DNA from: a virus
DNA: 62,070 nucleotides
IMG/VR virus record: IMGVR_UViG_3300034063_001003
Span: 1-62,070 of that record
Strand: one strand, 5' to 3'
Position 1 is the stretch's first letter, and each line of letters starts with the position of its first letter. The position numbers and the translations under genes were made by a program. Positions 6,322-62,070 of this stretch are shown one piece after another. The notes beneath the pieces are model-generated. The model saw only the letters and a program-made list of their open reading frames with translations, made no database searches and had not been told where the DNA came from.

Positions 6322-6338
6322 CCACAGAAAGGAGAATC

Positions 6339-12833: not shown

Positions 12834-13046
12834 ATGCCGAAAAAATTGATCCTGTCCCCGCGCGAGGAGCAAATCCTCAACGCCATCTGCGAGCTTGGAC
12901 AGACCGACCTGGTGGCCCGTAAACTGGATATCTCGCCGCGGACCGTGGAGGTCTACATCAGCCGCGCCATGTCCACCAACAAATACCCCAACCGCCTCAT
13001 GCTGGCCCTGGCCAGGGACAGAGAACTTCGTAGCAAAAGGAGCTGA
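12834..13046 (+). CDS. LuxR/GerE-type helix-turn-helix regulator (70 residues)
   Basis: The whole protein is one HTH domain: LSPREEQILNAICELG, then QTDLVARKLDISPRTVEVYI with SRAM, which is the LuxR_C/GerE signature (recognition helix SPRTVEVYISRAM). It has no receiver or ligand domain, so it may bind DNA constitutively or pair with a host partner. It lies near the end of the early operon, where a switch toward late expression could be made; that role is inference. Confidence 0.75.
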   Translation: MPKKLILSPREEQILNAICELGQTDLVARKLDISPRTVEVYISRAMSTNKYPNRLMLALARDRELRSKRS

Positions 13047-13788: not shown

Positions 13789-13818
13789 GTCGTTCCTCTC
13801 CAACGATGATGGGAAGTG

Positions 13819-13847
13819 AAGCCCAGGTGTGTCGAGCACCTGGGCTT
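13819..13847. terminator. Strong hairpin, probable terminator of the early region
   Basis: AAGCCCAGGTG at 13819-13829 pairs perfectly with CACCTGGGCTT at 13837-13847 around a seven-base loop. A short T-run is included, and TTTT follows ten bases later. It would stop plus-strand early transcripts and may also insulate the minus-strand HNH gene. Confidence 0.6.
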
Positions 13848-13854
13848 TGCGCAT

Positions 13855-14233
13855 TTTATAGGCAATGCGGTGGTTTAGGGGCGAAGAAGGGTGTTTTGTC
13901 AGGGTTTCTACCTACACGGACCACGGGTCACGGGCAAATTCGGGGTTTCTATAGACCAAATGAGACTCAACATGTGTTTTTATTTTTTTTTTTTTAAAAA
14001 TGACGTGATAGACGTAATGGTGTAATAGATCAATGAAATCAATAGGTTAGATGTGTACAGTACATTACAAGGTGTTCTACAGTGTAATTTCACATAAAAT
14101 GCGCGCGCGACCTTTTTTTGAAAAAAAAAAAACATACATTGGTCATTTTTTTCCTATATAAACCCCCGAATTCGCCTTCCCCGGCCTTGGGAGGAGGTTG
14201 CGTTACCCTGTAGAAGTGTTGCACAATCGGCCT
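13855..14233. other. AT-rich non-coding block with inverted repeats, candidate origin
   Basis: About 380 bases hold no credible gene and are far more AT-rich than the rest. Outer arms 13937-13954 and 14154-14172 are near-perfect inverted copies (AATTCGGGGTTT with a CTATA stretch). Inside lie a T13-A5 tract (13983-14000) and a T7-G-A12 tract (14113-14132), also in mirrored order. Between them are four GTAAT/ATTAC elements and an 11-bp palindrome TGTACAGTACA (14054-14064). Such features fit a replication origin or a major control region between early and late halves. No initiator gene is adjacent, so this is inference. Confidence 0.45.
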
Positions 14234-14449
14234 ATGAGAATCGAGAGACACGTCCCCCTGCCTGACGACCGCCAACGGCAGGTCTACCCCTTCCCTGACA
14301 TGGCGGTGGGCGACAGCTTCCTGGTGCTGGACGCGGATTGGATCAAGAACTTGCGCAGCGCGGCCTACATGTACGCCAAGCGGCATCCTGGGGTGCGGTT
14401 CACCATTCGCAAGTATGGTGAGGGCTGGCGGCTGTGGAGGGTCACTTGA
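14234..14449 (+). CDS. Small conserved phage protein (VPLP...YPFPDMAVGDSF family)
   Basis: The 71-residue product has the pattern VPLPDDRQRQVYPFPDMAVG, DSFLV and then RFTIRKYGEGWRLWRV, which recurs as a small protein in many phages near early or packaging genes. I start it at ATG 14234 because the conserved part begins there. A TTG at 14198 is possible, but GAGGAGG abuts it too closely. Function unknown; its stop shares a base with the terminase start. Confidence 0.7.
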   Translation: MRIERHVPLPDDRQRQVYPFPDMAVGDSFLVLDADWIKNLRSAAYMYAKRHPGVRFTIRKYGEGWRLWRVT

Positions 14450-15123
14450 TGCGGACGTACAAGGATGAAAAGTTCTTGGCTGGCAAAAGCCTTGGTGGGG
14501 TGGACCAACGGGTCGAGGACCGGATCACCGCGCCGGTCAAGCCCCACAAGCCCCGGGTGCTGACACCGCAGGAGTGGAAGTTCGTCGAGGAATTCGTGGC
14601 CGGTGATGGGCACGTGACCCTCAAGGAAGCCGCGATCCGCGCCGGGTACAGCGAAATCTGGGCAAAGAACCGGGCCCGGGAGCTGACCGACCCTGACAAG
14701 AGCCCCCACATCGTGGCCGCTATCCAGGAGCGCCGCCGGGAGCTGGGCGAAAAGTACGCCACCACCTTTGAGCGGCACATGCGCGACCTCCAGGTCATCC
14801 GCGACCAGGCGCTGGCTGCAGGTGCGTATGGCGCGGCCGTGCAGGCAGAGTATCGCCGCGGCCAGGCCCTGGGCACGATCTACATCGACCGCAAGGAAAT
14901 CAGGCACGGGACCATTGACAGCATGTCCAAGGAAGAGGTCATGCGAAAGCTTGAGGAGATCAAGCGCCTGTACGGTGGCCAGGCCGGGCCCATCGTGGAC
15001 GTAACGTCCAGGCAGATCGAGGAAGAGCCTGAAGAGGAAAAAGACGATGGCAATGAAGCCCGAAGCGAACCTGTACAAGCGCCTGAAAGACAACGTCCCA
15101 AATTGCCATTTCACCCGGATTGA
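14449..15123 (+). CDS. Terminase small subunit
   Basis: The ATG at 14449 follows GGAGGG by eight bases. The 224-residue product has an N-terminal helix-turn-helix of the TerS type (LTPQEWKFVEEFVAGDG, then TLKEAAIRAGYSE), which recognises the packaging site. A long helical oligomerisation region follows (RHMRDLQVIRDQALAAGAYG onward), then an acidic EEEPEEEK tail suited to docking on TerL. The large subunit lies 5.6 kb downstream, separated by an accessory module, which is unusual. Confidence 0.8.
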   Translation: MRTYKDEKFLAGKSLGGVDQRVEDRITAPVKPHKPRVLTPQEWKFVEEFVAGDGHVTLKEAAIRAGYSEIWAKNRARELTDPDKSPHIVAAIQERRRELGEKYATTFERHMRDLQVIRDQALAAGAYGAAVQAEYRRGQALGTIYIDRKEIRHGTIDSMSKEEVMRKLEEIKRLYGGQAGPIVDVTSRQIEEEPEEEKDDGNEARSEPVQAPERQRPKLPFHPD

Positions 15124-15463
15124 ATCCCGGGTCAACCTGGGCATCCCGGACTGTCTGGTCGCCTTCCCGCACGGGGAGTTCGTGATGGTCGAGCTCAAGG
15201 TGGTCAAGCGTGGGCGCAAGATTGCCCTGTCTCCGCACCAGGTGGCCTTCCATGTCAAACACGCGGACCTGCGCTGCCCGACCTACATCCTGGTCCAGTA
15301 TTTCCCGCCTGGTACTGCCCATGCTCACAAGTCGGACCTGCTGCTATACGCGGGAGAGCAGGCCCTGGACCTGGTGCGCATGGGGATCGACACACCGCCT
15401 ATGGCGCGCTGGCCCTGGACAGGGATTTCCTGGGCTGAACTGCGCGCTGCCATGCTGGCTTGA
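15047..15463 (+). CDS. VRR-NUC family nuclease
   Basis: This 138-residue protein matches the stand-alone VRR-NUC fold: a PD-(D/E)XK core with E near residue 25 (IESRVNLGIPDCLV), the PD motif, and the ELKVVK strand supplying the E-x-K pair. VRR-NUC proteins cleave branched or flap DNA, and phage versions probably resolve recombination or packaging intermediates. It overlaps the terminase gene by 77 bases in another frame with GAGGAAAA upstream. A packaging role beside TerS is inference. Confidence 0.85.
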   Translation: MAMKPEANLYKRLKDNVPNCHFTRIESRVNLGIPDCLVAFPHGEFVMVELKVVKRGRKIALSPHQVAFHVKHADLRCPTYILVQYFPPGTAHAHKSDLLLYAGEQALDLVRMGIDTPPMARWPWTGISWAELRAAMLA

Positions 15464-15489
15464 CGATCGTAAAAACACTATGCTATGAT
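15460..15489 (+). promoter_or_regulatory. Candidate sigma70-type promoter P1
   Basis: TTGACG at 15460-15465 and TATGAT at 15484-15489 are separated by 18 bases, in front of the gene at 15535. The -35 box contains the TGA stop codon of the VRR-NUC gene, an arrangement repeated at two other promoters of this module. Confidence 0.6.
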
Positions 15490-15534
15490 GCCCCTGCCTG
15501 GATGACCAGGTAACCATAGAAAGGTAGAAAGCAA

Positions 15535-16209
15535 ATGAGGAAGCTCAAAACATTCACGCAAGGCGACGGCGCACATTGGGGCCTGTCTGATTGGTATGAC
15601 GACGGCGAGACAGAGCTTGCCGCTGCGCTTACCGACCATGCCCCGTTCGATACGGGTTGGTACTCCAGCAAGAAGGAGATCGCATCCGCACGCATCTGGT
15701 CAGAGGACGGCATCAAGATCAAGGTCGAGGTGTCTGTGTCTGATGACTTTGACACCCTCGGCGGAGGCTACGCCAGCACTAACGAGTGGACGATTGATGC
15801 CATCCGTGCCTGCATCAGCAACGCATGGGACAGGGCGGAGTCGGACAGGGGGGAGAATCAGGAGTACGAAGGATTCAGAGTCGGGCGAGAGGGGCGCTGG
15901 GAGGAGACTTACCTCGTCAGCATTGGGTGGGGAGAGAATCTGTCACCCCCGGGCGAAAACTACCATTGGTGGGGTTGGCAATACGACGGCGCTGACGACA
16001 CAGTTGGCGTGCCGCACCCTGACATCCCGGTCGAGATCGTGCAAGCGTTTGAGAAGTGGGCGAATGACTGGGCGTTCGGTCGCATCGAGGAGAAGTCCCT
16101 CACAGTTGGGGAGTGGACGATCACCCCGTGGAGGGATACTCGCTCGCAACCCGAAGACCCCAACGATTACGTTGGGATGGGGTGGGTCGGTCATGATGGT
16201 CGCCCGTAA
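15535..16209 (+). CDS. Accessory protein, unknown (224 residues)
   Basis: This is the first gene of the accessory module and has its own promoter and the doubled leader AGAAAG-GT-AGAAAG ending three bases before the ATG. The product is acidic and very rich in tryptophan (WGLSDWYDDGE, NYHWWGWQYDGADD, WANDWAFG). It reads as a compact soluble protein with mixed strands and helices. I recognise no domain. A host-takeover or anti-defence role is only suggested by the context. Confidence 0.7.
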   Translation: MRKLKTFTQGDGAHWGLSDWYDDGETELAAALTDHAPFDTGWYSSKKEIASARIWSEDGIKIKVEVSVSDDFDTLGGGYASTNEWTIDAIRACISNAWDRAESDRGENQEYEGFRVGREGRWEETYLVSIGWGENLSPPGENYHWWGWQYDGADDTVGVPHPDIPVEIVQAFEKWANDWAFGRIEEKSLTVGEWTITPWRDTRSQPEDPNDYVGMGWVGHDGRP

Positions 16210-16258
16210 TTTGTAGCCGAGGGTGAACCGGACCACGCGCAAGAAAGTTAGAAAGCAG

Positions 16259-16375
16259 ATGATTGCCAACAGCCGGCCTAAAGAACCCGAAATGGTCCCA
16301 AACACGCAGCGGGGGCTTGTCCTGCGCCTGTTCTGGCTTTGGCTGTTCCATAGAATTGTTGGCGGGGATAGTTGA
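16259..16375 (+). CDS. Tiny membrane-type peptide (38 residues)
   Basis: An ATG three bases after the leader AGAAAG-TT-AGAAAG (16242-16255) opens a short frame whose C-terminal half is hydrophobic (GLVLRLFWLWLFHRIVGG). Its TGA forms part of the -35 box of the next promoter, as for the other genes of this module. The shared leader is the main reason to call it real. Confidence 0.5.
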   Translation: MIANSRPKEPEMVPNTQRGLVLRLFWLWLFHRIVGGDS

Positions 16376-16402
16376 CACCAGTTGATAATTGTGGTGTAGA
16401 AT
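16372..16402 (+). promoter_or_regulatory. Candidate promoter P2
   Basis: A consensus TTGACA (16372-16377) and TAGAAT (16397-16402) are 19 bases apart. The same 19-base spacing and the same TAGAAT occur at P3. The stop codon of the tiny upstream gene lies inside the -35 box. It should drive the three genes from 16456 to 17397. Confidence 0.65.
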
Positions 16403-16455
16403 TTCAACCAGGCCGAGCATTCCGCAAGGCCTACAACCTAGAAAGTGAGAAAGAC

Positions 16456-16941
16456 ATGTCCGAAACGAATCCTATCGTGGCCGCCTTGCAGGGGGCATTT
16501 GAGTCCGCGGTCCAGGCCGCGGTCGAGCAGCGTCTGGCGCCCCTGGCCGCCCGACTGGCCGCGCTTAAGCGCGGCCTGGCCGCGCTTGAGGCGGTACAGG
16601 TGCCGCACGAGCAGCGCCTGATTTTCAACGATGACGAGCTGCGCCAACTGGCCGCGCACGTCAACCTGGCAGAGCTGGCCGGCGAACTGATCCCTGCCCA
16701 ACTGCGGACAATAGGCGAGGGCGTCAACCTGGCCAGCCTGGCCGCCGAGCTGAGCCCGTCCGAGCTGCTCGACAATGTCGATTGGTCCGAGGTGCTGGAC
16801 TATGCCGACCTGGCCAGCGAGGTCGACCTGTCCGACCTGGCCGATGAGATCAGCATGGAGCGCCTGACGGATGCGATCGACCTGAATGGGAAAATCCGCG
16901 ACTATTTGTCCGACACGATGTTCAACATCCGGGAAGCCTGA
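16456..16941 (+). CDS. Leucine/alanine-rich repeat-like accessory protein
   Basis: The start is the ATG at 16456, two bases after the AGAAAG-TG-AGAAAG leader. Residues 10-50 of the 161-residue acidic product form an alanine-rich helix (coiled-coil type). The rest repeats a loose unit seen in VNLAELAGELIPAQL, VNLASLAAELSPSELL and VDLSDLADEIS, with the leucine spacing of a solenoid. It may be a scaffold or protein-binding inhibitor. No family recognised; confidence in the repeat reading is moderate. Confidence 0.65.
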   Translation: MSETNPIVAALQGAFESAVQAAVEQRLAPLAARLAALKRGLAALEAVQVPHEQRLIFNDDELRQLAAHVNLAELAGELIPAQLRTIGEGVNLASLAAELSPSELLDNVDWSEVLDYADLASEVDLSDLADEISMERLTDAIDLNGKIRDYLSDTMFNIREA

Positions 16942-16942
16942 C

Positions 16943-17170
16943 ATGCGGCGCAAAGATAACGTGCAGAAAATCACCCACCTGATGGTAATGAACCCGGGCG
17001 GCCCACTGACCCAGGCCCTGGTGCTCGAGGCGGTGCGCCAGTACTGCAGCGACATAGTCGCGGCCGGCCGGCCTGAGGATGACTCGCGCGCCTGGATCAG
17101 CCCGGTCGCGATCTACAACTGCGCCGAGGGCATCATCGAGGCGCTCGACCACATGGAGGCCGCGGTATGA
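16943..17170 (+). CDS. Accessory protein, unknown (75 residues)
   Basis: It starts at ATG 16943 right after the preceding stop and ends overlapping the next ATG. The product begins MRRKDNVQKITHLMVMNPGG and has two helical segments (LVLEAVRQYCSDIVAAG, AIYNCAEGIIEALDHMEAA). It looks like a small all-helical phage protein of the P2 transcript. Function unknown. Confidence 0.6.
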   Translation: MRRKDNVQKITHLMVMNPGGPLTQALVLEAVRQYCSDIVAAGRPEDDSRAWISPVAIYNCAEGIIEALDHMEAAV

Positions 17171-17397
17171 CCGACGACCAGGAATGGGCGCTCTGGCAGA
17201 AAGAGCTCGCGCTCTGGAACCACCGCGCGGCCCAGGTGATGGACAAAATGGGCGGCGGCTTTGCCGCAGCTATCGCCCTGGCCTACTTCCGCGCCGACAG
17301 TGACAACAGGGCGCGCTTGCTTGACGCCTTCCCCGACCTGTTCGCGAAATACCGCCAGTGGGCGCGCGACCTGCACGATGATCAACCAGGCGCTTGA
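17167..17397 (+). CDS. Accessory protein, unknown (76 residues)
   Basis: An ATGA overlap sets the start. The product carries LWQKELALWNHRAAQVMDKM, then AAAIALAYFRADSDNRARLL and DAFPDLFAKYRQWA, a pattern I associate with small helical phage proteins of unknown role. Its TGA is part of the -35 hexamer of P3, so the P2 transcript ends where the P3 promoter begins. Confidence 0.65.
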   Translation: MTDDQEWALWQKELALWNHRAAQVMDKMGGGFAAAIALAYFRADSDNRARLLDAFPDLFAKYRQWARDLHDDQPGA

Positions 17398-17430
17398 CGC
17401 CTGCCCCTTGTTTGCATGTAGAATGCAAAC
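17394..17430 (+). promoter_or_regulatory. Candidate promoter P3 with overlapping operator
   Basis: TTGACG (17394-17399) and TAGAAT (17419-17424) are 19 bases apart, as in P2. The -10 box lies inside an inverted repeat: GTTTGCAT (17410-17417), five-base centre, ATGCAAAC (17423-17430). A protein bound there would block RNA polymerase. The same arms fused into a 20-bp palindrome occur at 20076-20095, and a half site GTTTGCA follows TAGAAT at 18840-18852. Confidence 0.6.
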
Positions 17431-17483
17431 ACCGCCGCCGGGACGGTTTCCCGGTTTCCTAGAAAGTTAGAAAGAGAGTCAGT

Positions 17484-18581
17484 ATGAAAACACTTATGCA
17501 GGCCAACACTCAGTGGGCCACCCGTCCGGACGAAGAGCGCTTTTGCAGCCTCCCCGAGATGCATGCCGCCATGGAGGCGCGCCGCGCCATCAGCCGCGCG
17601 GCCGTGGTCAGCAGTCGGCGCCTGCGCGCCGTCCCGACCGACGATAACCGGGGCCTGATGATCGAGGGCCCGAACGGCCACGGCTATGCGCCCACGCACT
17701 GGGCCATGGGCCAGGCCGCTAACCTGGTCGGCGCGCCAGGCGCCTACCTTCGGCAGCTGCCGGCCCCGCTGGCGGCCGACTGCCTAAATTACGGGTTCCA
17801 GGTCGAGCGTGACGCCAAGGATATCGGCGTCCTGTTGTCTCGGAATGGCGTGTCGGAGCTTCGGGCCGTGACCGGGCCCAACTATGGCCGCATTTGGGAC
17901 GGTGACGTGGTGGCCGCCCTGATGGATCGCTTCGGGGATGGGGTAACCGGTGACTGGCGCGTCCCTGGCACGTGGGGCAAAGCACTCGACCAGGTGACAA
18001 AGGCCAACACCACGTTATATGCCGGCGATAGGGATTGTTTTATTTTCCTGGCGGATGAGATAAACCGTATTGAACTGCCAGGCCGGCGTGACGGTAAAAC
18101 CGGCGAGCTCGCGCGCGGGTTTTTTGTCACCAACAGCGAAACCGGCGCCGGCTCCCTGCGCGTCAAAACCTTTTTGTTTGATTTTGTTTGCGCTAATCGC
18201 ATTGTTTGGGGCGCGCACGAATTGGATGAAATCAGCATCCGGCACACGGCCAGCGCGCCGGATAAATTTATCGACCAGGTGACGCCCGCTCTTTTGGAAT
18301 ATAGCCGCGCGAGCGCGGCCAATATATCCGGGGTCCTGCGCGGCGCCCAGGCCAGCAAAATCGACAAGGTCGATAAATTCCTGGCGAACCGGTTCGGGCC
18401 GCGCGTGGCCGCACGCGTGCAACATGCGCACATGCTCGACGAAGGCCGGCCGATCGAGACGGTTTGGGACGCGGTAACCGGCGCCACCGCGTACGCCAGG
18501 TCGATCCCCTGGCAGTCCGACCGGGTCGAATTTGAAACCCAGGCCGGCGGCCTGTTGGACCTGGTAGAGGTGGTTTCGTGA
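17484..18581 (+). CDS. DUF932 family phage/plasmid-like protein
   Basis: The 365-residue protein matches the DUF932 (phage/plasmid-like, TIGR03299-type) layout. It opens with a region on a DNGGLxIxG-type strand (NRGLMIEGPNGHGYAPTHWA). A core follows with LRAVTGPNYGRIWDGDVVAA, then NEINRIEL-like and SETGAGSLRVKTFLFDFVCA, NRIVWGAHEL. The C-terminus is a helical tail. The family occurs on plasmids and phages near anti-restriction or recombination genes; the function is unproven. Some stretches use AT-ending codons unlike the replication genes. Transcribed from P3 with the AGAAAG-TT-AGAAAG leader. Confidence 0.8.
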   Translation: MKTLMQANTQWATRPDEERFCSLPEMHAAMEARRAISRAAVVSSRRLRAVPTDDNRGLMIEGPNGHGYAPTHWAMGQAANLVGAPGAYLRQLPAPLAADCLNYGFQVERDAKDIGVLLSRNGVSELRAVTGPNYGRIWDGDVVAALMDRFGDGVTGDWRVPGTWGKALDQVTKANTTLYAGDRDCFIFLADEINRIELPGRRDGKTGELARGFFVTNSETGAGSLRVKTFLFDFVCANRIVWGAHELDEISIRHTASAPDKFIDQVTPALLEYSRASAANISGVLRGAQASKIDKVDKFLANRFGPRVAARVQHAHMLDEGRPIETVWDAVTGATAYARSIPWQSDRVEFETQAGGLLDLVEVVS

Positions 18582-18787
18582 GCCGGCGCCTGGTTTATGC
18601 CGGGGCTTTCCCCGGGGTCGGTCGGTTTCGCGTTACCTGGTCGGCCGAATATTCCGAATACAGGGTCCAGTTAATCGACCAGGTCGAAAACCTGGTTTCG
18701 GAATATTTCACGCCCGACCGGGTTGACGCAATTAACACGGCCGACCGCATGCTATCCGACCAGGCCGCGCGCCTGGGGGTCGACTGA
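18578..18787 (+). CDS. Small protein coupled to the DUF932 gene
   Basis: It starts at GTG 18578, overlapping the DUF932 stop as GTGA. The 69 residues form a basic strand region (RRLVYAGAFPGVGRFRVTWS), then helices (VDAINTADRMLSDQAARLG). A strong terminator follows within 25 bases, so the DUF932 gene and this one form a two-gene operon and may work together. Confidence 0.65.
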   Translation: MSRRLVYAGAFPGVGRFRVTWSAEYSEYRVQLIDQVENLVSEYFTPDRVDAINTADRMLSDQAARLGVD

Positions 18788-18810
18788 CCTGGTCGACCTG
18801 GTAGATTTAA

Positions 18811-18834
18811 CCCGGCCAGCGTGCCGGGTTTTTT
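18811..18834 (+). terminator. Rho-independent terminator after the DUF932 operon
   Basis: CCCGGC (18811-18816) pairs with GCCGGG (18823-18828), followed by six Ts. It closes the P3 transcript. TAGAAT and an operator half site GTTTGCA lie immediately after it, hinting at a further promoter for the next genes. Confidence 0.85.
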
Positions 18835-18900
18835 ATGGTTAGAATGTTTGCACCGCGCCAGGTCGGTTACCTGGTTAGAAAGTTAGAAAGTGAGCCCCGA

Positions 18901-19074
18901 ATGCTTAAGACAATCCGCACCAGCGCGAACCGCAAAACCGGTCCCGCAACAGTCACGCACCGCCCCGACCCGCGCCAGGCTTTGCCCGCTACCAGCGCGA
19001 TCGCTCGCGATTGGACCGGGCGCCCGTTGGCCTATCGCATCCCCGGCCTTGGCCGTTTTACTTCAAACAAGTAA
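18901..19074 (+). CDS. Short protein sharing its N-terminus with the next gene
   Basis: The 57-residue frame begins MLKTIRTSANRKTGP, identical to the start of the gene at 19085; over 44 bases only one differs. It then diverges (IARDWTGRPLAYRIPGLGRF) and stops. The AGAAAG-TT-AGAAAG leader lies ten bases upstream. It may be a truncated duplicate, a separate small protein or a leader peptide for the next gene. Confidence 0.5.
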   Translation: MLKTIRTSANRKTGPATVTHRPDPRQALPATSAIARDWTGRPLAYRIPGLGRFTSNK

Positions 19075-19084
19075 GGGGCCGGCC

Positions 19085-19774
19085 ATGCTTAAGACAATCC
19101 GCACCAGCGCGAACCGTAAAACCGGTCCGATTGCCGTCACCTACCGCGCCGGCCAGCATGCGACCCTGGCCACCTGCCCCAAGGCGTGCCCGCTAAACCC
19201 CAAAGGGGACCAAGGCGCCGACCTGGTCGACCAGGCCTATTTGACGGCCGTGCGCCAGGCCGTGCCACCTGGTGGCCAAGCTTGGACCTATTCGCATTTC
19301 CCGGCCGAAACCCTGCCGGCGCCGGCGCCTGGTGAAACCGTGATTAACGCCAGCTGCGACACGATCGACCAGGCCCTGGCCGCCATGGCCATCGGCCGCC
19401 CGGCCACCGTGGCCGCACCGGCCGGCACGGTTTGGCCGTATACCGTGGCCGGCCGCCGGTTTATCCAGTGCCCGGCCGAAACGGTCGACACGGTTACGTG
19501 CGCCAGCTGCGGCGCCGGCCGTCCCTTGTGCGCACGCGGGGACCGGGACTACGCGATTGTTTTTGTTGCGCATGGCCAGGCCGCGCGCCTGGTCGGGTCC
19601 GACCAGGCCGGCGGATGTTACGGGACCGGCGGACCTGTTGCGATAGCCTGGCACAGTACCCGCCAGGCCGGCGCGCCTGATGACGCGGCCGCCGTGGTCC
19701 GGTTTGCCCGGTCCCTCCCGCCTGGGTCCCTGTTGCGCCACCACGTGGTCGGCGACCTGGGTCGCGACCAGTAA
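19085..19774 (+). CDS. Cysteine-rich accessory protein, unknown (229 residues)
   Basis: The N-terminal part reads KTGPIAVTYRAGQHATLATC followed by PKACPL, and later AWTYSHFPAETL, GETVINASCDTIDQA and a CASCGAGRPLCARG cluster. The cysteine spacing suggests one or two metal sites. I recall similar phage proteins (KTGPIAVTYR...CP...YSHF...ETVINASCD) without a known role. A start at ATG 19085 gives the family-like N-terminus, and a terminator follows directly. The downstream half is very GC-rich with repeated ACCTGGT heptamers in the coding sequence. Confidence 0.65.
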   Translation: MLKTIRTSANRKTGPIAVTYRAGQHATLATCPKACPLNPKGDQGADLVDQAYLTAVRQAVPPGGQAWTYSHFPAETLPAPAPGETVINASCDTIDQALAAMAIGRPATVAAPAGTVWPYTVAGRRFIQCPAETVDTVTCASCGAGRPLCARGDRDYAIVFVAHGQAARLVGSDQAGGCYGTGGPVAIAWHSTRQAGAPDDAAAVVRFARSLPPGSLLRHHVVGDLGRDQ

Positions 19775-19796
19775 CCCGTTTTCACCCCACAGCGAG

Positions 19797-19819
19797 CCCG
19801 GCCGCGCGCCGGGTTTTTT
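19797..19819 (+). terminator. Rho-independent terminator closing the accessory module
   Basis: CCCGGC (19797-19802) pairs with GCCGGG (19808-19813) and is followed by six Ts. The stem is the same as that of the terminator at 18811, suggesting duplication of a cassette end. Confidence 0.85.
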
Positions 19820-19830
19820 GCTTCGGGTAT

Positions 19831-19886
19831 CAAGCTCCTGCCGGCCTACCTGGTCAAGCTCCTGCCGGCCTACCTGGTCGAGCTCC
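19831..19886. repeat. 24-base tandem repeat
   Basis: Two exact copies (19831-19854 and 19855-19878) starting CAAGCTCCTGCCGGCC are followed by a partial third beginning CGAGCTCC. It directly follows the terminator of the accessory module. Confidence 0.85.
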
Positions 19887-20075
19887 CATTAACCCGCCAG
19901 GCCGGCCGCCGGCCGTGCCAGGCCGCGAGCTTCGGCCAGCTGGCCCGTGGTCCGCGCGCCAGGTATCACGCGCCTGGTCGACCTGGTGCTGCAGCTGGTG
20001 GCGCGCGGTTTTGCACCTGGTGCTGCAGCTGGTGGCCGTGGCCGTGTTTGTGTTTGTGTCTACCTGGTGGCCCGT

Positions 20076-20095
20076 GTTTGCATGTACATGCAAAC
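20076..20095. promoter_or_regulatory. 20-bp perfect palindrome, candidate operator
   Basis: GTTTGCATGT is followed at once by its reverse complement. Its arms equal those of the inverted repeat over the P3 -10 box, so both may be sites for one dimeric regulator. Confidence 0.5.
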
Positions 20096-20437
20096 CAGGT
20101 CCGGGGCCCGTGCACCTGGTCGACCAGGCCGCCGACCTGGTGCCCGTGCTACCTGGTCGACCAGGCCGCGCACCTGGTGCCAGGCGACCAGGCGACCAGG
20201 CCGCCGACCAGGTGGCCGCGGCGCCCGGCGCCAGGTCCGCGGACCGCGGCGCCCGGACCCCCCACCCCGGACCCCGGGTCCAAAAAACGGGCCGCTGCCC
20301 AGGCTGCGCCGGCCTTGGCCCGGTTTTACACGGTCAGTGGTCCGCGAAACAGTTTTCTTGTTCCATGAAAACTACCCCCTTCCAAAAAACCTCGATTTGG
20401 CCCAAAAATTTTTCGCAGTTGAAATACAATCAGTTCC

Positions 20438-20770
20438 ATGAAAACAACCTGCTCAAAGTGTGGCTTGCCCAATGACCGCCTGCCCCAGCGGTATTGCCGC
20501 GTGTGCCATGCTGCGTACGCCAGGGCCCGTCGTCCGCGGCACGCGGACCTTGAACCGGGTCAAAAGCAGCGATCGATCGCCCGCTCGTACGCCAACGTGT
20601 ATCAGCGCCGTGGCAAGATTGCCCCCGAGCCGTGCTCCGTCTGCCGTGATCCGGTTGCCCAGAAGCATCATGAGGACTACAGTAGGCCCTTGCAGATCAC
20701 CTGGCTCTGCCGCAAATGTCACCAAAAGCGGCATTTGGATGACAAACTTCTTCACGTGAAACAATCATGA
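20438..20770 (+). CDS. Zinc-binding HNH-like protein next to the terminase
   Basis: The 110-residue product has CSKC and YCRVCHAAY near the start, and in the second half CSVC, KHHEDYSRPLQITWLCRKCH and QKRH. The HHEDYSxPLxxxWLCxxCH block is typical of small phage HNH/zinc-finger endonucleases. HNH proteins beside terminase genes can assist cohesive-end cutting or packaging. Its start sequence GTTCCATGAAAAC is duplicated 73 bases upstream. The TGA overlaps the terminase ATG. Confidence 0.7.
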   Translation: MKTTCSKCGLPNDRLPQRYCRVCHAAYARARRPRHADLEPGQKQRSIARSYANVYQRRGKIAPEPCSVCRDPVAQKHHEDYSRPLQITWLCRKCHQKRHLDDKLLHVKQS

Positions 20771-22227
20771 TCCCTGACGACGTTGACGCGGAACGACTGC
20801 GCCTTGAGCTGCGGCTCTCGCAACTTGAAGCTCAAGACAGAGCGAGGACTCACTTCATCGACTTTGTTCGGTACGTCTGGCCTGAGGCGATCCTTGGCGC
20901 GCACCATGAGAAGATGGCCGCGGCCTTTGATCGGATTGCCAACGGCACGCTCAAGCGCCTGATCATCAACATGCCGCCCCGGCACACGAAGTCTGAGTTT
21001 GCGTCCTACCTGCTGCCGGCGTTTCTCATGGGCCGCGCTCCGCGGACCAAGGCCATTGAGGCGACCCACAATGGTGAGCTTGCCGTGCGCTTTGGTCGCA
21101 AGGTCAGGGACCTGATGGATCAGCCTGCGTACAAGGAGCTTTTTCCTGAGGTGAGCCTGAAGCAGGATTCAAAGGCTGCTGGCCGGTGGGACACGAACAA
21201 GGGTGGCGAGTACTTTGCGGTCGGTGTTGGCGGTGCGATGACCGGGCGGGGTGCGGACGTGTTGGTGATTGACGATCCGCATTCAGAGCAGGATGCCTTG
21301 TCGGATTTGGCTTTGGACAATGCCTGGGAGTGGTACCAGGGTGGTCCTCGTACTCGTTTGCAGCCGGGCGGGGCGATTGTGATTGTGATGACGCGCTGGG
21401 GCACGAAGGACATGACGGCCCGGCTGATCAAGGCGCAGTCGAGCCACAACGCGGACAAGTGGGAGGTGATTGAGTTCCCGGCCATCTTACCTAGTGGTAG
21501 ACCCTTATGGCCTGAGTTCTGGAAGCTCGACGAGTTGTTGGCGGTGAAAGCGTCGCTGTCGGTGCAGAAGTGGAACGCGATGTACCAGCAGCAGCCCACG
21601 AACGACGAGGGCGCGATCTTGAAGAGGGAGTGGTGGAAGGTCTGGCAGCATGATGATCCGCCGGTGGTGAACTACATCATCCAGACGATGGACACGGCGT
21701 ACTCGAAGAAGGAGACGGCTGACTTCTCTGTCATCGCGACCTGGGGCGTGTTTTACCTGAACGAGGACTCGGGGGCCAACATCATCTTGTTGGACGTCAA
21801 ACGGGGCAGGTGGGATTTCCCGGAGCTCAAAAAGGTGGCCAAGGAGCAGTACGACCACTGGCAGCCTGACAACCTGCTGATTGAGGCGAAGGCGACGGGA
21901 ACGCCGCTGCAGCAGGAGCTGCGGCGGATGGACATCCCGGTGACGATGTACTCACCTGGTGGGCGCAAGACGGGGACGGACAAGATTGCCCGGGTCAACG
22001 CGGTGGCGCCGGTGTTGGAGTCGGGGATTGTCTGGGCGCCGGATACGGACTGGGCCGAGGAGTTGGTGGAGGAGTGTGCGGCGTTTCCGCACGGGGACAA
22101 CGACGACATGGTGGACGTGACGACCATGGCGCTGATGCGCTTTCGCCAGGGCAACTTCGTGACCTTGGCCACTGACGCGCCGGACGAGGAGCCTAGCCAA
22201 GAAGGGCTTGTCCCAGAGTACTACTGA
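20767..22227 (+). CDS. terL: Terminase large subunit
   Basis: The 486-residue protein has an ATPase domain with the deviant Walker A MPPRHTKS (69-76), Walker B VLVIDD (165-170) and a TRWGTKD coupling segment. The C-terminal RNase H-fold nuclease has its first acid in QTMDTAYSKK and the last in HGDNDDMVDVTT. The length is normal for the family. It cuts concatemers and drives DNA into the prohead through the portal. The ATG overlaps the stop of the HNH-like gene. Confidence 0.97.
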   Translation: MIPDDVDAERLRLELRLSQLEAQDRARTHFIDFVRYVWPEAILGAHHEKMAAAFDRIANGTLKRLIINMPPRHTKSEFASYLLPAFLMGRAPRTKAIEATHNGELAVRFGRKVRDLMDQPAYKELFPEVSLKQDSKAAGRWDTNKGGEYFAVGVGGAMTGRGADVLVIDDPHSEQDALSDLALDNAWEWYQGGPRTRLQPGGAIVIVMTRWGTKDMTARLIKAQSSHNADKWEVIEFPAILPSGRPLWPEFWKLDELLAVKASLSVQKWNAMYQQQPTNDEGAILKREWWKVWQHDDPPVVNYIIQTMDTAYSKKETADFSVIATWGVFYLNEDSGANIILLDVKRGRWDFPELKKVAKEQYDHWQPDNLLIEAKATGTPLQQELRRMDIPVTMYSPGGRKTGTDKIARVNAVAPVLESGIVWAPDTDWAEELVEECAAFPHGDNDDMVDVTTMALMRFRQGNFVTLATDAPDEEPSQEGLVPEYY

Positions 22228-59730: not shown

Positions 59731-61169
59731 TGTTTGAGGTCCTCTCCCAGCACCTGGGTTGCGATGTTGATCTTGTCACGCAGGGCCTTCACGATCTTCT
59801 CATCCACCGTGCCTGGCGAGATGAGGTCGATGTAGGTCACGTTCTTGGTCTGCCCGATCCGGTGTGCGCGGTCCTCGGACTGCAAACGCTTTTCCAGGTC
59901 AAAGCTGTTGCTGAAGTAGACCATCGTGCTGGCCGCGGTCAGGGTCAAGCCGTAGCCGCCCGTGCTCGGGTTGCCAATGAAAAAGCGCATGTCACTGTCA
60001 GGCTTTTGGAACTCCTCCAGCACACGCTTGCGCTCGTCCCCATCGGTGTCGCCGTAGTACGTGCCGATGGTGTTCATGCCGTACTCTTTGGCCAGGGCCA
60101 TCTTGATGGCTTCGATGTCGTGTCGGTACGTGGCCCAGATGATGATCTTGCCGTCCGTCTCCTCGACCAGGCCAAGCAACTCCTTGATCCTGTTGTTGGG
60201 CAACTCTACCACCGTGCCGTCGTCCATCTTCACGTGGCCACAGACGATCTGGTGCATCCGCATGATCTGCGTGAGTGCATTGACCGTGCTCACCAGGCCG
60301 CCGTTGATCTGCGCCAGAGCCATCGTCTTCATCTCGTTGTAGGCCTTGACCTGCTCGTCAGTCAGGTCCACCTCACGCTTGACGTAGAGCTTGTCCGGCA
60401 AGTCCAGGCACTCTTCCTTCTTCACGCGAAACGCGAAGCGATCGAGCTTTTCCTTGAGCTCATCAAGGCGCCTGTAGCCGACGATCTGCTTGAAGCTGTG
60501 CGTGTTGAGCTGGCGCTCCACGGTCACAGCGTAGCGAGCCTGGAAGACGTAGTAGCTGCTCGTGTTCAAGCAGCCGTCAGACAGGAAAGCACATTGTTGG
60601 TACAGGTCCATCGGGCTCTTCGTGACCGGGGAGCCTGTCATGATGCGCCTGAACCGCGCGCCACGGCCCACCTTCTCGGTGTTCTTGCTGCGCGTCGATG
60701 TGGGCGTCTTGATGGTCGTGCTCTCGTCGACTGCCATGAGCGCGTTGTGCACCAGCAGGAACCGCTTGGCAAAGGCTGTGCCCTTGGGCGTGCTGAAGGC
60801 CTCGACGTTCATCACGAGAATCTTGAGGTCCTCTGTGACGGTGAACAGGTCATCGAGCGCCTGCTGCTCGGCCTTGCGTGGGCTTGCTGCCCAGATGGCC
60901 ATGCGGTAGACCACGTGCTCGGGTAAGTGCTTAGGGATTTCAGTGTCGTACCAGTTGCGGTAGACGCCCTTGGGGGCTACGATTAGCACCCCGTTGATCT
61001 TGCCCGTGTCGTAGAGCATGGCCGCGTTGTTGATCAGCATGAAGCTCTTGCCTGTTCCCATGTCGGCGAACAGGGCCGCAACTGGGCAATCCCAGAAGCG
61101 CTGAAGGTAAGCCTGCTGATGCAAAAACGGCTTGTTCTTGAACGGGTACGTCGAAAGAAATTGGTTCAT
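59718..61169 (-). CDS. SNF2/RapA-type DEAD-like helicase
   Basis: This 483-residue superfamily 2 ATPase has Walker A DMGTGKS at 36-42, motif II DEST at 148-151, motif III MTGSP, and in the second RecA domain motif V (GYGLTLTAASTMVYFSNSFD) and motif VI QSEDRAHRIGQT, the SNF2 arginine-finger box. There are no extra chromatin domains. Phage SNF2-like proteins are found in replication modules and may strip proteins or remodel forks. The minus-strand leader carries AGAAAGTGAGA before the ATG. Confidence 0.92.
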   Translation of the reverse strand: MNQFLSTYPFKNKPFLHQQAYLQRFWDCPVAALFADMGTGKSFMLINNAAMLYDTGKINGVLIVAPKGVYRNWYDTEIPKHLPEHVVYRMAIWAASPRKAEQQALDDLFTVTEDLKILVMNVEAFSTPKGTAFAKRFLLVHNALMAVDESTTIKTPTSTRSKNTEKVGRGARFRRIMTGSPVTKSPMDLYQQCAFLSDGCLNTSSYYVFQARYAVTVERQLNTHSFKQIVGYRRLDELKEKLDRFAFRVKKEECLDLPDKLYVKREVDLTDEQVKAYNEMKTMALAQINGGLVSTVNALTQIMRMHQIVCGHVKMDDGTVVELPNNRIKELLGLVEETDGKIIIWATYRHDIEAIKMALAKEYGMNTIGTYYGDTDGDERKRVLEEFQKPDSDMRFFIGNPSTGGYGLTLTAASTMVYFSNSFDLEKRLQSEDRAHRIGQTKNVTYIDLISPGTVDEKIVKALRDKINIATQVLGEDLKQWLI

Positions 61170-61254
61170 GATGTCTCACTTTCTGGCAGGGGGTTGCGGG
61201 TCCCTGAAAAGATAGTGTACACTGCATGTCCGCTTTTAGAAAGGAGAAATAAAA
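61170..61254. promoter_or_regulatory. Divergent promoter region between the helicase and early operons
   Basis: These 85 bases separate divergent genes. For the plus strand TTGCGG (61194-61199) and TACACT (61218-61223) are 18 bases apart. The -10 box lies in a 10-bp palindrome AGTGTACACT (61214-61223), which could be an operator acting on both sides. The plus leader has AGAAAGGAGAAA. Confidence 0.45.
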
Positions 61255-61599: not shown

Positions 61600-62070
61600 G
61601 GAAGATGCCGGTGCCCTGCAAGTTTCTGACGAGCAGGTAACAGGCATCGCGGGCCTTGCAAAGCGAGCCAAGCTTCTTGAGAAAGAACTTGCTGACCTTG
61701 AGAAGACCGTCTCAGAAAAGTCTGAGCAGTACCGCAAGCTCACTGAGCAAACGATCCCCGAGGCCATGGCCGAGGCGGGCATGAAGAAGTTCGTGATGGG
61801 CGACGGCTCAACCGTTGACATCAAGCCCTTCTACAGCGCGAGCATCCCCAAGGCGCGGCAGGAAGAGGCCTTCCAATGGCTGCGCGATCGGGGCTTTGAT
61901 GACCTGATCAAGAACACCGTGAGCGTCCGCTTTGGGCGCAACGAAGACGAGCTTTGCGTTCGTCTACTGAGTCTCCTGGGCCAGCAAGGCTATCCTGCTG
62001 AGCAGGCACAGAAGATCGAACCCCAGACCCTCAAGGCCTGGGTGAAAGAGCGTGTCGAGAAGGGTGACCA
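61577..62070 (+). CDS. Junction-spanning early protein, N-terminal part (184 residues in full)
   Basis: AAAGGAG precedes ATG 61577. The gene runs off the right edge and continues at 138-198, giving 184 residues. Residues ~28-62 are a charged coiled coil (LLEKELADLEKTVSEKSEQY). The rest is mixed (KKFVMGDGSTVDIKPFYSAS, KARQEEAFQWLRDRGFDDLI). It precedes the possible ssDNA-binding protein, so an early replication role is plausible. I do not recognise the family. Confidence 0.8.
   Translation, partial: MSLTNLFEEDAGALQVSDEQVTGIAGLAKRAKLLEKELADLEKTVSEKSEQYRKLTEQTIPEAMAEAGMKKFVMGDGSTVDIKPFYSASIPKARQEEAFQWLRDRGFDDLIKNTVSVRFGRNEDELCVRLLSLLGQQGYPAEQAQKIEPQTLKAWVKERVEKGD
61945..62070. repeat. Terminal direct repeat, right copy (circular closure overlap)
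   Basis: Identical to bases 12-137. Circularising on this overlap removes one copy and restores the reading frame of the gene that crosses the junction, which supports a complete genome of about 61,933 bases. Confidence 0.9.

Follow-up and report, generated by a model that had tools for sequence, protein, structure and literature searches.

The window analysed here is the whole of IMG/VR virus record IMGVR_UViG_3300034063_001003 (62,070 bases), and the subject is a leader sequence that recurs just upstream of gene starts in its accessory module. Exact copies of the doubled hexamer AGAAAGNNAGAAAG occur five times in the record (15518, 16242, 16440, 17461 and 18877), only on the plus strand and all within 15.5-18.9 kb, against a chance level of 0.01 copies on average and 1 at most in dinucleotide shuffles. 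The motif ends 3, 3, 2, 9 and 10 nucleotides (nt) before the start codons at 15535, 16259, 16456, 17484 and 18901, respectively. A preliminary description of this DNA had listed five such copies before starts, and all were recovered, with one coordinate amended from 16240 to 16242; its minus-strand variant (61184-61171) is likewise present upstream of an SNF2-helicase gene, and the backbone leaders that it set in contrast, AGAAAGGAGAAA/T with the sequence AGAAAGGAG, were located at 6326, 7081, 8614, 61238 and 61562. AGAAAG itself occurs at 31 sites in the record, the backbone leaders with AGAAAGGAG among them, and since the majority of these sites lie just upstream of starts it serves this genome as a general initiation element. 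A longer core, AGAAAG-H-GAG, which equals AGAAAGGAG with one inserted non-G base (H), is found at only four places in the record (16440, 17461, 18877 and the minus-strand SNF2 leader), with GAG 5-6 nt from the start. It can be read as a split Shine-Dalgarno (SD) sequence. The features concerned, including open reading frames (ORFs, lengths in amino acids, aa) and 5' untranslated regions (UTRs), are as follows.

15460..15489, plus strand: promoter-like TTGACG-18-TATGAT ahead of the first leader, from a consensus scan
15497..15510, plus strand: 5' UTR stem-loop CCTGG-ATGA-CCAGG, from the sequence and the stem enrichment across leaders
15518..15531, plus strand: leader AGAAAGGTAGAAAG, whose split SD, AAAGG-T-AG, has the insertion shifted one base later
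15535..16209, plus strand: ORF of 224 aa without a Pfam or PHROG match; unrelated ORFs take its place behind a similar leader in two relatives (L129 and L131)
16242..16255, plus strand: leader AGAAAGTTAGAAAG of the 38-aa ORF, with no single-insertion SD
16259..16375, plus strand: ORF of 38 aa
16372..16402, plus strand: promoter-like TTGACA ... TGTAGAAT, found by eye; its 19-nt spacer is beyond the scanner's limit
16440..16453, plus strand: leader AGAAAGTGAGAAAG, core AGAAAG-T-GAG, 6 nt from the start
16456..16941, plus strand: ORF of 161 aa without a Pfam or PHROG match
17394..17424, plus strand: promoter-like TTGACG ... TGTAGAAT, found by eye, with a 19-nt spacer
17438..17454, plus strand: 5' UTR stem-loop CCGGGA...TCCCGG, whose arms co-change in an alignment of relatives
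17461..17478, plus strand: leader AGAAAGTT-AGAAAG-A-GAG, GAG 5 nt from the start
17484..18581, plus strand: DUF932 protein gene
18809..18836, plus strand: terminator-like hairpin with a T run, directly 5' of the next cassette
18840..18845, plus strand: -10-like TAGAAT, from the sequence
18858..18874, plus strand: 5' UTR stem-loop CCAGGT...ACCTGG, from the sequence and the stem enrichment across leaders
18877..18894, plus strand: leader AGAAAGTT-AGAAAG-T-GAG, GAG 6 nt from the start
18901..19074, plus strand: ORF of 57 aa that repeats N-terminal residues (MLKTIRTSANRKTGP) of the DUF7227 protein encoded at 19085-19774, which suggests a partial duplication or the remnant of a gene replacement behind the leader
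61171..61184, minus strand: AGAAAG-T-GAGACAT, with the core as in the module and GAG 5 nt from the start of the SNF2-helicase gene at 61169

Relatives of the module were collected from IMG/VR through the DUF932 protein (39 loci) and the DUF7227 protein (80 loci retained out of 254); gene starts in them are ORF-based and some relatives are fragments. These family loci and related contigs contained 350 instances of the doubled motif, 244 of them distinct and 163 left after clustering. The motif is tied to starts rather than equally common elsewhere, as 160 of the 163 clustered copies lie at most 13 nt upstream of an ORF start (ORFs of at least 30 codons), and the genes behind the copies belong to about 40 protein families. 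The copies are found mainly in a variable island that extends from the TerS/VRR-nuclease genes to TerL and measures 3.5-7.1 kb in 62 complete cases.

The doubled AGAAAG, described at first as the unit of the leader, is real, but it is partly a by-product of the core AGAAAG-H-GAG at a fixed distance from the start, with GAG 5-8 nt before the start codon. When 199 clustered leaders were anchored on AAAGNGAG, the inserted base was C in 88, A in 75, T in 34 and G in only 2, and the spacing from GAG to the start peaked at 6 nt. Outside the anchor, the preceding AG was 99-100% conserved and the following AAA 75-90%. The two bases (NN) between the hexamers follow the same rule. In motifs that end 0-5 nt from the start, where NN occupies the SD position, exactly one G is present in 109 of 113, as a one-base insertion into AGAAAGGAG requires. 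In motifs that end 7-12 nt from the start, NN is free of G in 37 of 45, and HGAG follows the second AGAAAG directly in 30 of the 45 (GAG itself in 4 more). This dependence of G content on position has a Fisher p of ~1e-23 (phylogeny not corrected). GG was present in none of the 163 doubled motifs, which, together with the 2 of 199 at the insertion, upholds the earlier observation that a contiguous GGAG is specifically missing from the module leaders.

The specificity of the hexamer was also apparent when HGAG-N5-8-ATG served as the sole anchor. Exactly AGAAAG preceded it at 182 of 297 module sites vs 6 of 225 backbone sites, and among the all-purine hexamers in this place in the module 182 of 185 were AGAAAG. 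This bears on the proposal of an S1-type interaction, in which an unstructured purine-rich or A-rich leader would serve ribosomal protein S1, or accessibility in general, with no specific pairing. The leaders are indeed rich in purines, and predicted folds leave them 74% unpaired on average. However, other purine hexamers are almost absent and the G content depends on position, so that an exact sequence and not a composition is conserved; this proposal was rejected as very improbable.

The exact complement of the backbone sequence AGAAAGGAG is the long 16S rRNA tail 3'-UCUUUCCUC-5', which is known from B. subtilis (PMC5427494) and has been mapped in Neisseria (PMC6288834). For 16S tails that end in UUUCU, the SD complement includes AGAAAG (PMC5427494, Table 1), and pairing of the AG with the terminal CU of a long tail would lead one to expect its near-invariance. 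The split leaders do not match the anti-SD without interruption: one non-G base is inserted in 197 of the 199, and a bulge is needed. The predicted duplex then has nine base pairs and a single bulged nt, with an energy of -9.62 ± 0.48 kcal/mol on the long tail GAUCACCUCCUUUCU, compared with -6.04 kcal/mol for shuffled leaders; removal of the insertion would bring the predicted energy to -13.4 kcal/mol. On the E. coli tail the leaders reach -5.2 vs -5.5 kcal/mol for shuffled ones and gain nothing. The preliminary description is therefore supported in setting apart a start-linked leader of the accessory module that differs from the backbone leaders, but not in regarding the canonical ribosome site as lost, since GAG is kept at the SD distance and this pairing is possible. 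If the long-tail pairing is true, the mature 16S rRNA of the host would end ...CCUCCUUUCU as opposed to ...CCUCCUUA, and the leader may in this way hint at the tail of the host.

Intermediate SD affinity has been found to be preferred (PMC6288834), which would fit an attenuated site. The leaders resemble the extended SD sequences that go with long 16S tails of the B. subtilis type (AGAAAGGAGG; PMC5427494, PMC6288834) in that AGAAAG and GAG match the tail, in the 5-8 nt spacing and in the intermediate affinity; they differ in that nearly every module leader has its complement interrupted by one non-G base, often along with an additional AGAAAG, and in that the host tail is a presumed one. A search of the literature, which was not exhaustive, found no report of bulged, split, interrupted, discontinuous or imperfect SD sequences. 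The leader would be a variant of the SD signal rather than a plain example of it, repeated and strongly conserved before about 40 gene families, with its complement broken at one position from which G is excluded. It offers a set of natural variants on which the influence of bulges, tail length and affinity on initiation can be tested.

The split form is characteristic of the island, where split sites and contiguous AAAGG(G)AG sites number 284 and 22, vs 26 and 91 in the backbone. Sister clades retain orthologous genes with contiguous sites instead (DUF932 in L046, L064, L110 and others; DUF7227 in L238 and L239), and a contiguous site is also present in the metagenome-assembled phage DSL-LC04, whose predicted host belongs to the Gammaproteobacteria. 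The two forms take each other's place, as the orthologous DUF932 gene of a sister clade has contiguous sites such as AGAAAGGAG. When IMG/VR was scanned for the exact pattern with TT as the spacer, AT-rich chance matches dominated, and a scan for the GG type gave 52 stretches that were largely AT-rich and non-family, apart from two related contigs that share one context and have no hairpin. The reversed-pattern control was set aside as contaminated, owing to the overlap of AGAAAGAGAGAAAG with its own reverse. A search for the host through related bacterial genomes returned a single weak match, a contig of a metagenome-assembled genome of the Acidobacteria. The leader provides a practical marker for accessory islands in this family of uncultured water phages.

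The exclusion of GGAG raises the question of a nuclease or another factor that recognizes this sequence and from which the split would shield the mRNA. T4 RegB cuts GG*AGRAYARAA in SD sequences (PMC3014915), and the unsplit form AAAGGAGAAAG would resemble this consensus; in the leaders the GGAG is broken. However, no RegB homologue was found: none of 19 phage records, the window among them and several of them fragmentary, matched PF10715 in a search that recovered RegB of T4 as positive control (E=1e-69) and that an unrelated nuclease would escape. Moreover, these same phages use GGAG freely before their backbone genes. An escape from a RegB-type nuclease was rejected, and we regard shielding of this kind as very unlikely.

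Upstream of the leaders, a -10 box (at least 5 of 6 matches) was found in 110 of 159 cases, most often 30-37 nt from the motif, whereas shuffles gave 26. A GC stem that ends at most 14 nt from the motif was present in 92 of the 159, vs 18 expected from shuffles, with 61 distinct 5' arms. In the DUF932 leaders, an alignment read by eye shows arms that change together (CCGGGA/TCCCGG, CCAGGT/ACCTGG, CCGGT/ACCGG and CCGAT/ATCGG). RNAalifold on the same leaders gave 3 pairs only and no covariation, MAFFT having gapped the stem loop, and the stem was tested against shuffles in its place. No Rfam element scored above threshold in 13800-20800, the sole hit being SorX at 22.7 bits (cut-off 46.6).

Similar leaders stand before different genes. 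Pairs of leaders at least 75% identical whose proteins have no blastp match numbered 32, an upper bound because at least one pair looks homologous; the leaders at 15518 of the window and at 8379 of L129 are an example. Historical copying alone, in which one leader was duplicated along with its promoter and the split base is neutral, would account for unrelated genes behind similar leaders. Yet the core is constant despite the 61 stem arms, three different bases are inserted with G excluded, and the stem arms co-change. A constant core amid diverse stems, together with the excluded G, points to selection and not to copying alone, which we consider very improbable.

The arrangement recalls the mobile regulatory cassettes of T4, the promoter early stem-loop (PeSL) elements (Arbiol 2010 and Comeau 2014, as cited in PMC4503421). 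As far as these elements are described there, unrelated genes likewise follow similar units of promoter and stem-loop that recur in a variable region, the promoter here being one predicted from its -10 box, which may or may not act early. The present stem differs in its place within the 5' UTR, downstream of the promoter and ahead of the start, and a specialised ribosome site is part of the cassette. The terminator role given for PeSL stems does not extend to the leader stems, which have no T run and were never scored as terminators; the terminator-like hairpin at 18809 is a distinct element. The idea of a mobile promoter cassette would thereby be widened to a cassette with its own ribosome site.

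A hairpin followed by a repetitive single-stranded stretch over the ribosome site also recalls the translational operator of T4 gene 32 (PMC3014915), although here a simple hairpin replaces the pseudoknot, the repeats are purines and not A+U, many genes are involved and no repressor is known. By analogy, a sequence-specific RNA-binding regulator of the phage or host could coordinate the translation of the accessory genes. The very high specificity for AGAAAG, the barring of G from one position and the sharing of a single leader type by many genes would suit such a protein. Against it, the spacing and the G content of NN track the SD position and not the repeat, the orthologous genes of the sister clades have contiguous SD sites instead, and a Pfam scan of 30 window proteins, which cover part of the genome, gave no RNA-binding candidate. 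A regulator is thus unlikely, if less so than the readings rejected above.

Taken together, these features suggest, with a probability of about two in three, that the leader is the ribosome-binding part of an expression cassette composed of promoter, 5' hairpin and split SD. It looks like a real ribosome site of ordinary purpose and unusual form, a tuned signal rather than a lost one. The order of the cassette would be a sigma-70-like promoter, a stem-loop in the 5' UTR, an extended and interrupted SD sequence and the start codon. AGAAAG would pair with the CUUUCU at the end of the tail and GAG with CUC, and the inserted base would be bulged out, leaving intermediate instead of maximal pairing 5-8 nt before the start. 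Additional copies of AGAAAG, upstream or downstream, would give the doubled appearance and may be extra places for docking. A probable role of the stem-loop near the 5' end is to hold the site open and protect the mRNA. Because similar cassettes precede unrelated accessory genes, they probably travel with the genes exchanged in the island or act as joints for the exchange.

Several observations weigh against the split-SD cassette. The 16242 leader of the 38-aa ORF is an exception without a single-insertion split SD, as are several DUF932 leaders (AGAAACTTAGAATTGG), and 4 of the 113 motifs in the SD position are free of G and thus have no split SD. A qualifying stem is missing from about 40% of the leaders, and a strong -10 box from about 30%. 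The counts are clustered, with phylogeny not corrected for. The long 16S tail is a presumed one for the host of this uncultured virus, and Betaproteobacteria have been grouped with Gammaproteobacteria as having a short genomic tail, yet a long tail was mapped in Neisseria (PMC6288834). Finally, a G at the insertion leaves the computed long-tail energy nearly the same (-9.7 vs -9.6 kcal/mol), so pairing strength alone does not account for the exclusion of G. A more specific version, on which we are doubtful, is that the one-base split and the excluded G form a functional device. The site might be usable only with a full-length, long-tailed 16S rRNA (predicted -9.6 vs -5.2 kcal/mol on the short tail), a contiguous GGAG being usable with both, or it might be hidden from a GGAG-recognising factor; either would be a signature of an exchangeable phage gene cassette.

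A conserved gene of about 80 aa lies on the opposite strand in relatives (minus strand; L135:5900, L137:10063, L176:3239, L178:13778 and L196:12898) and has a different 5' UTR, with a hairpin, a boxA-like TTCTTTAAC, AGAAAGNGAGAAAG and ATG. CCWGG words are over-represented in the record (332 vs 196 expected) and visibly dense in the island (15400-20400), along with many words like GGTCGACC. Upstream of the module, 12834-13046 encodes a small helix-turn-helix protein of the LuxR/GerE type, a possible transcription regulator, and a stretch between the HNH gene and the TerS region (13900-14200) is AT-rich with long T and A runs. The end of the record (61970-62070) repeats sequence from about position 38 onward (1-100), and the genome may accordingly be circular or terminally redundant.

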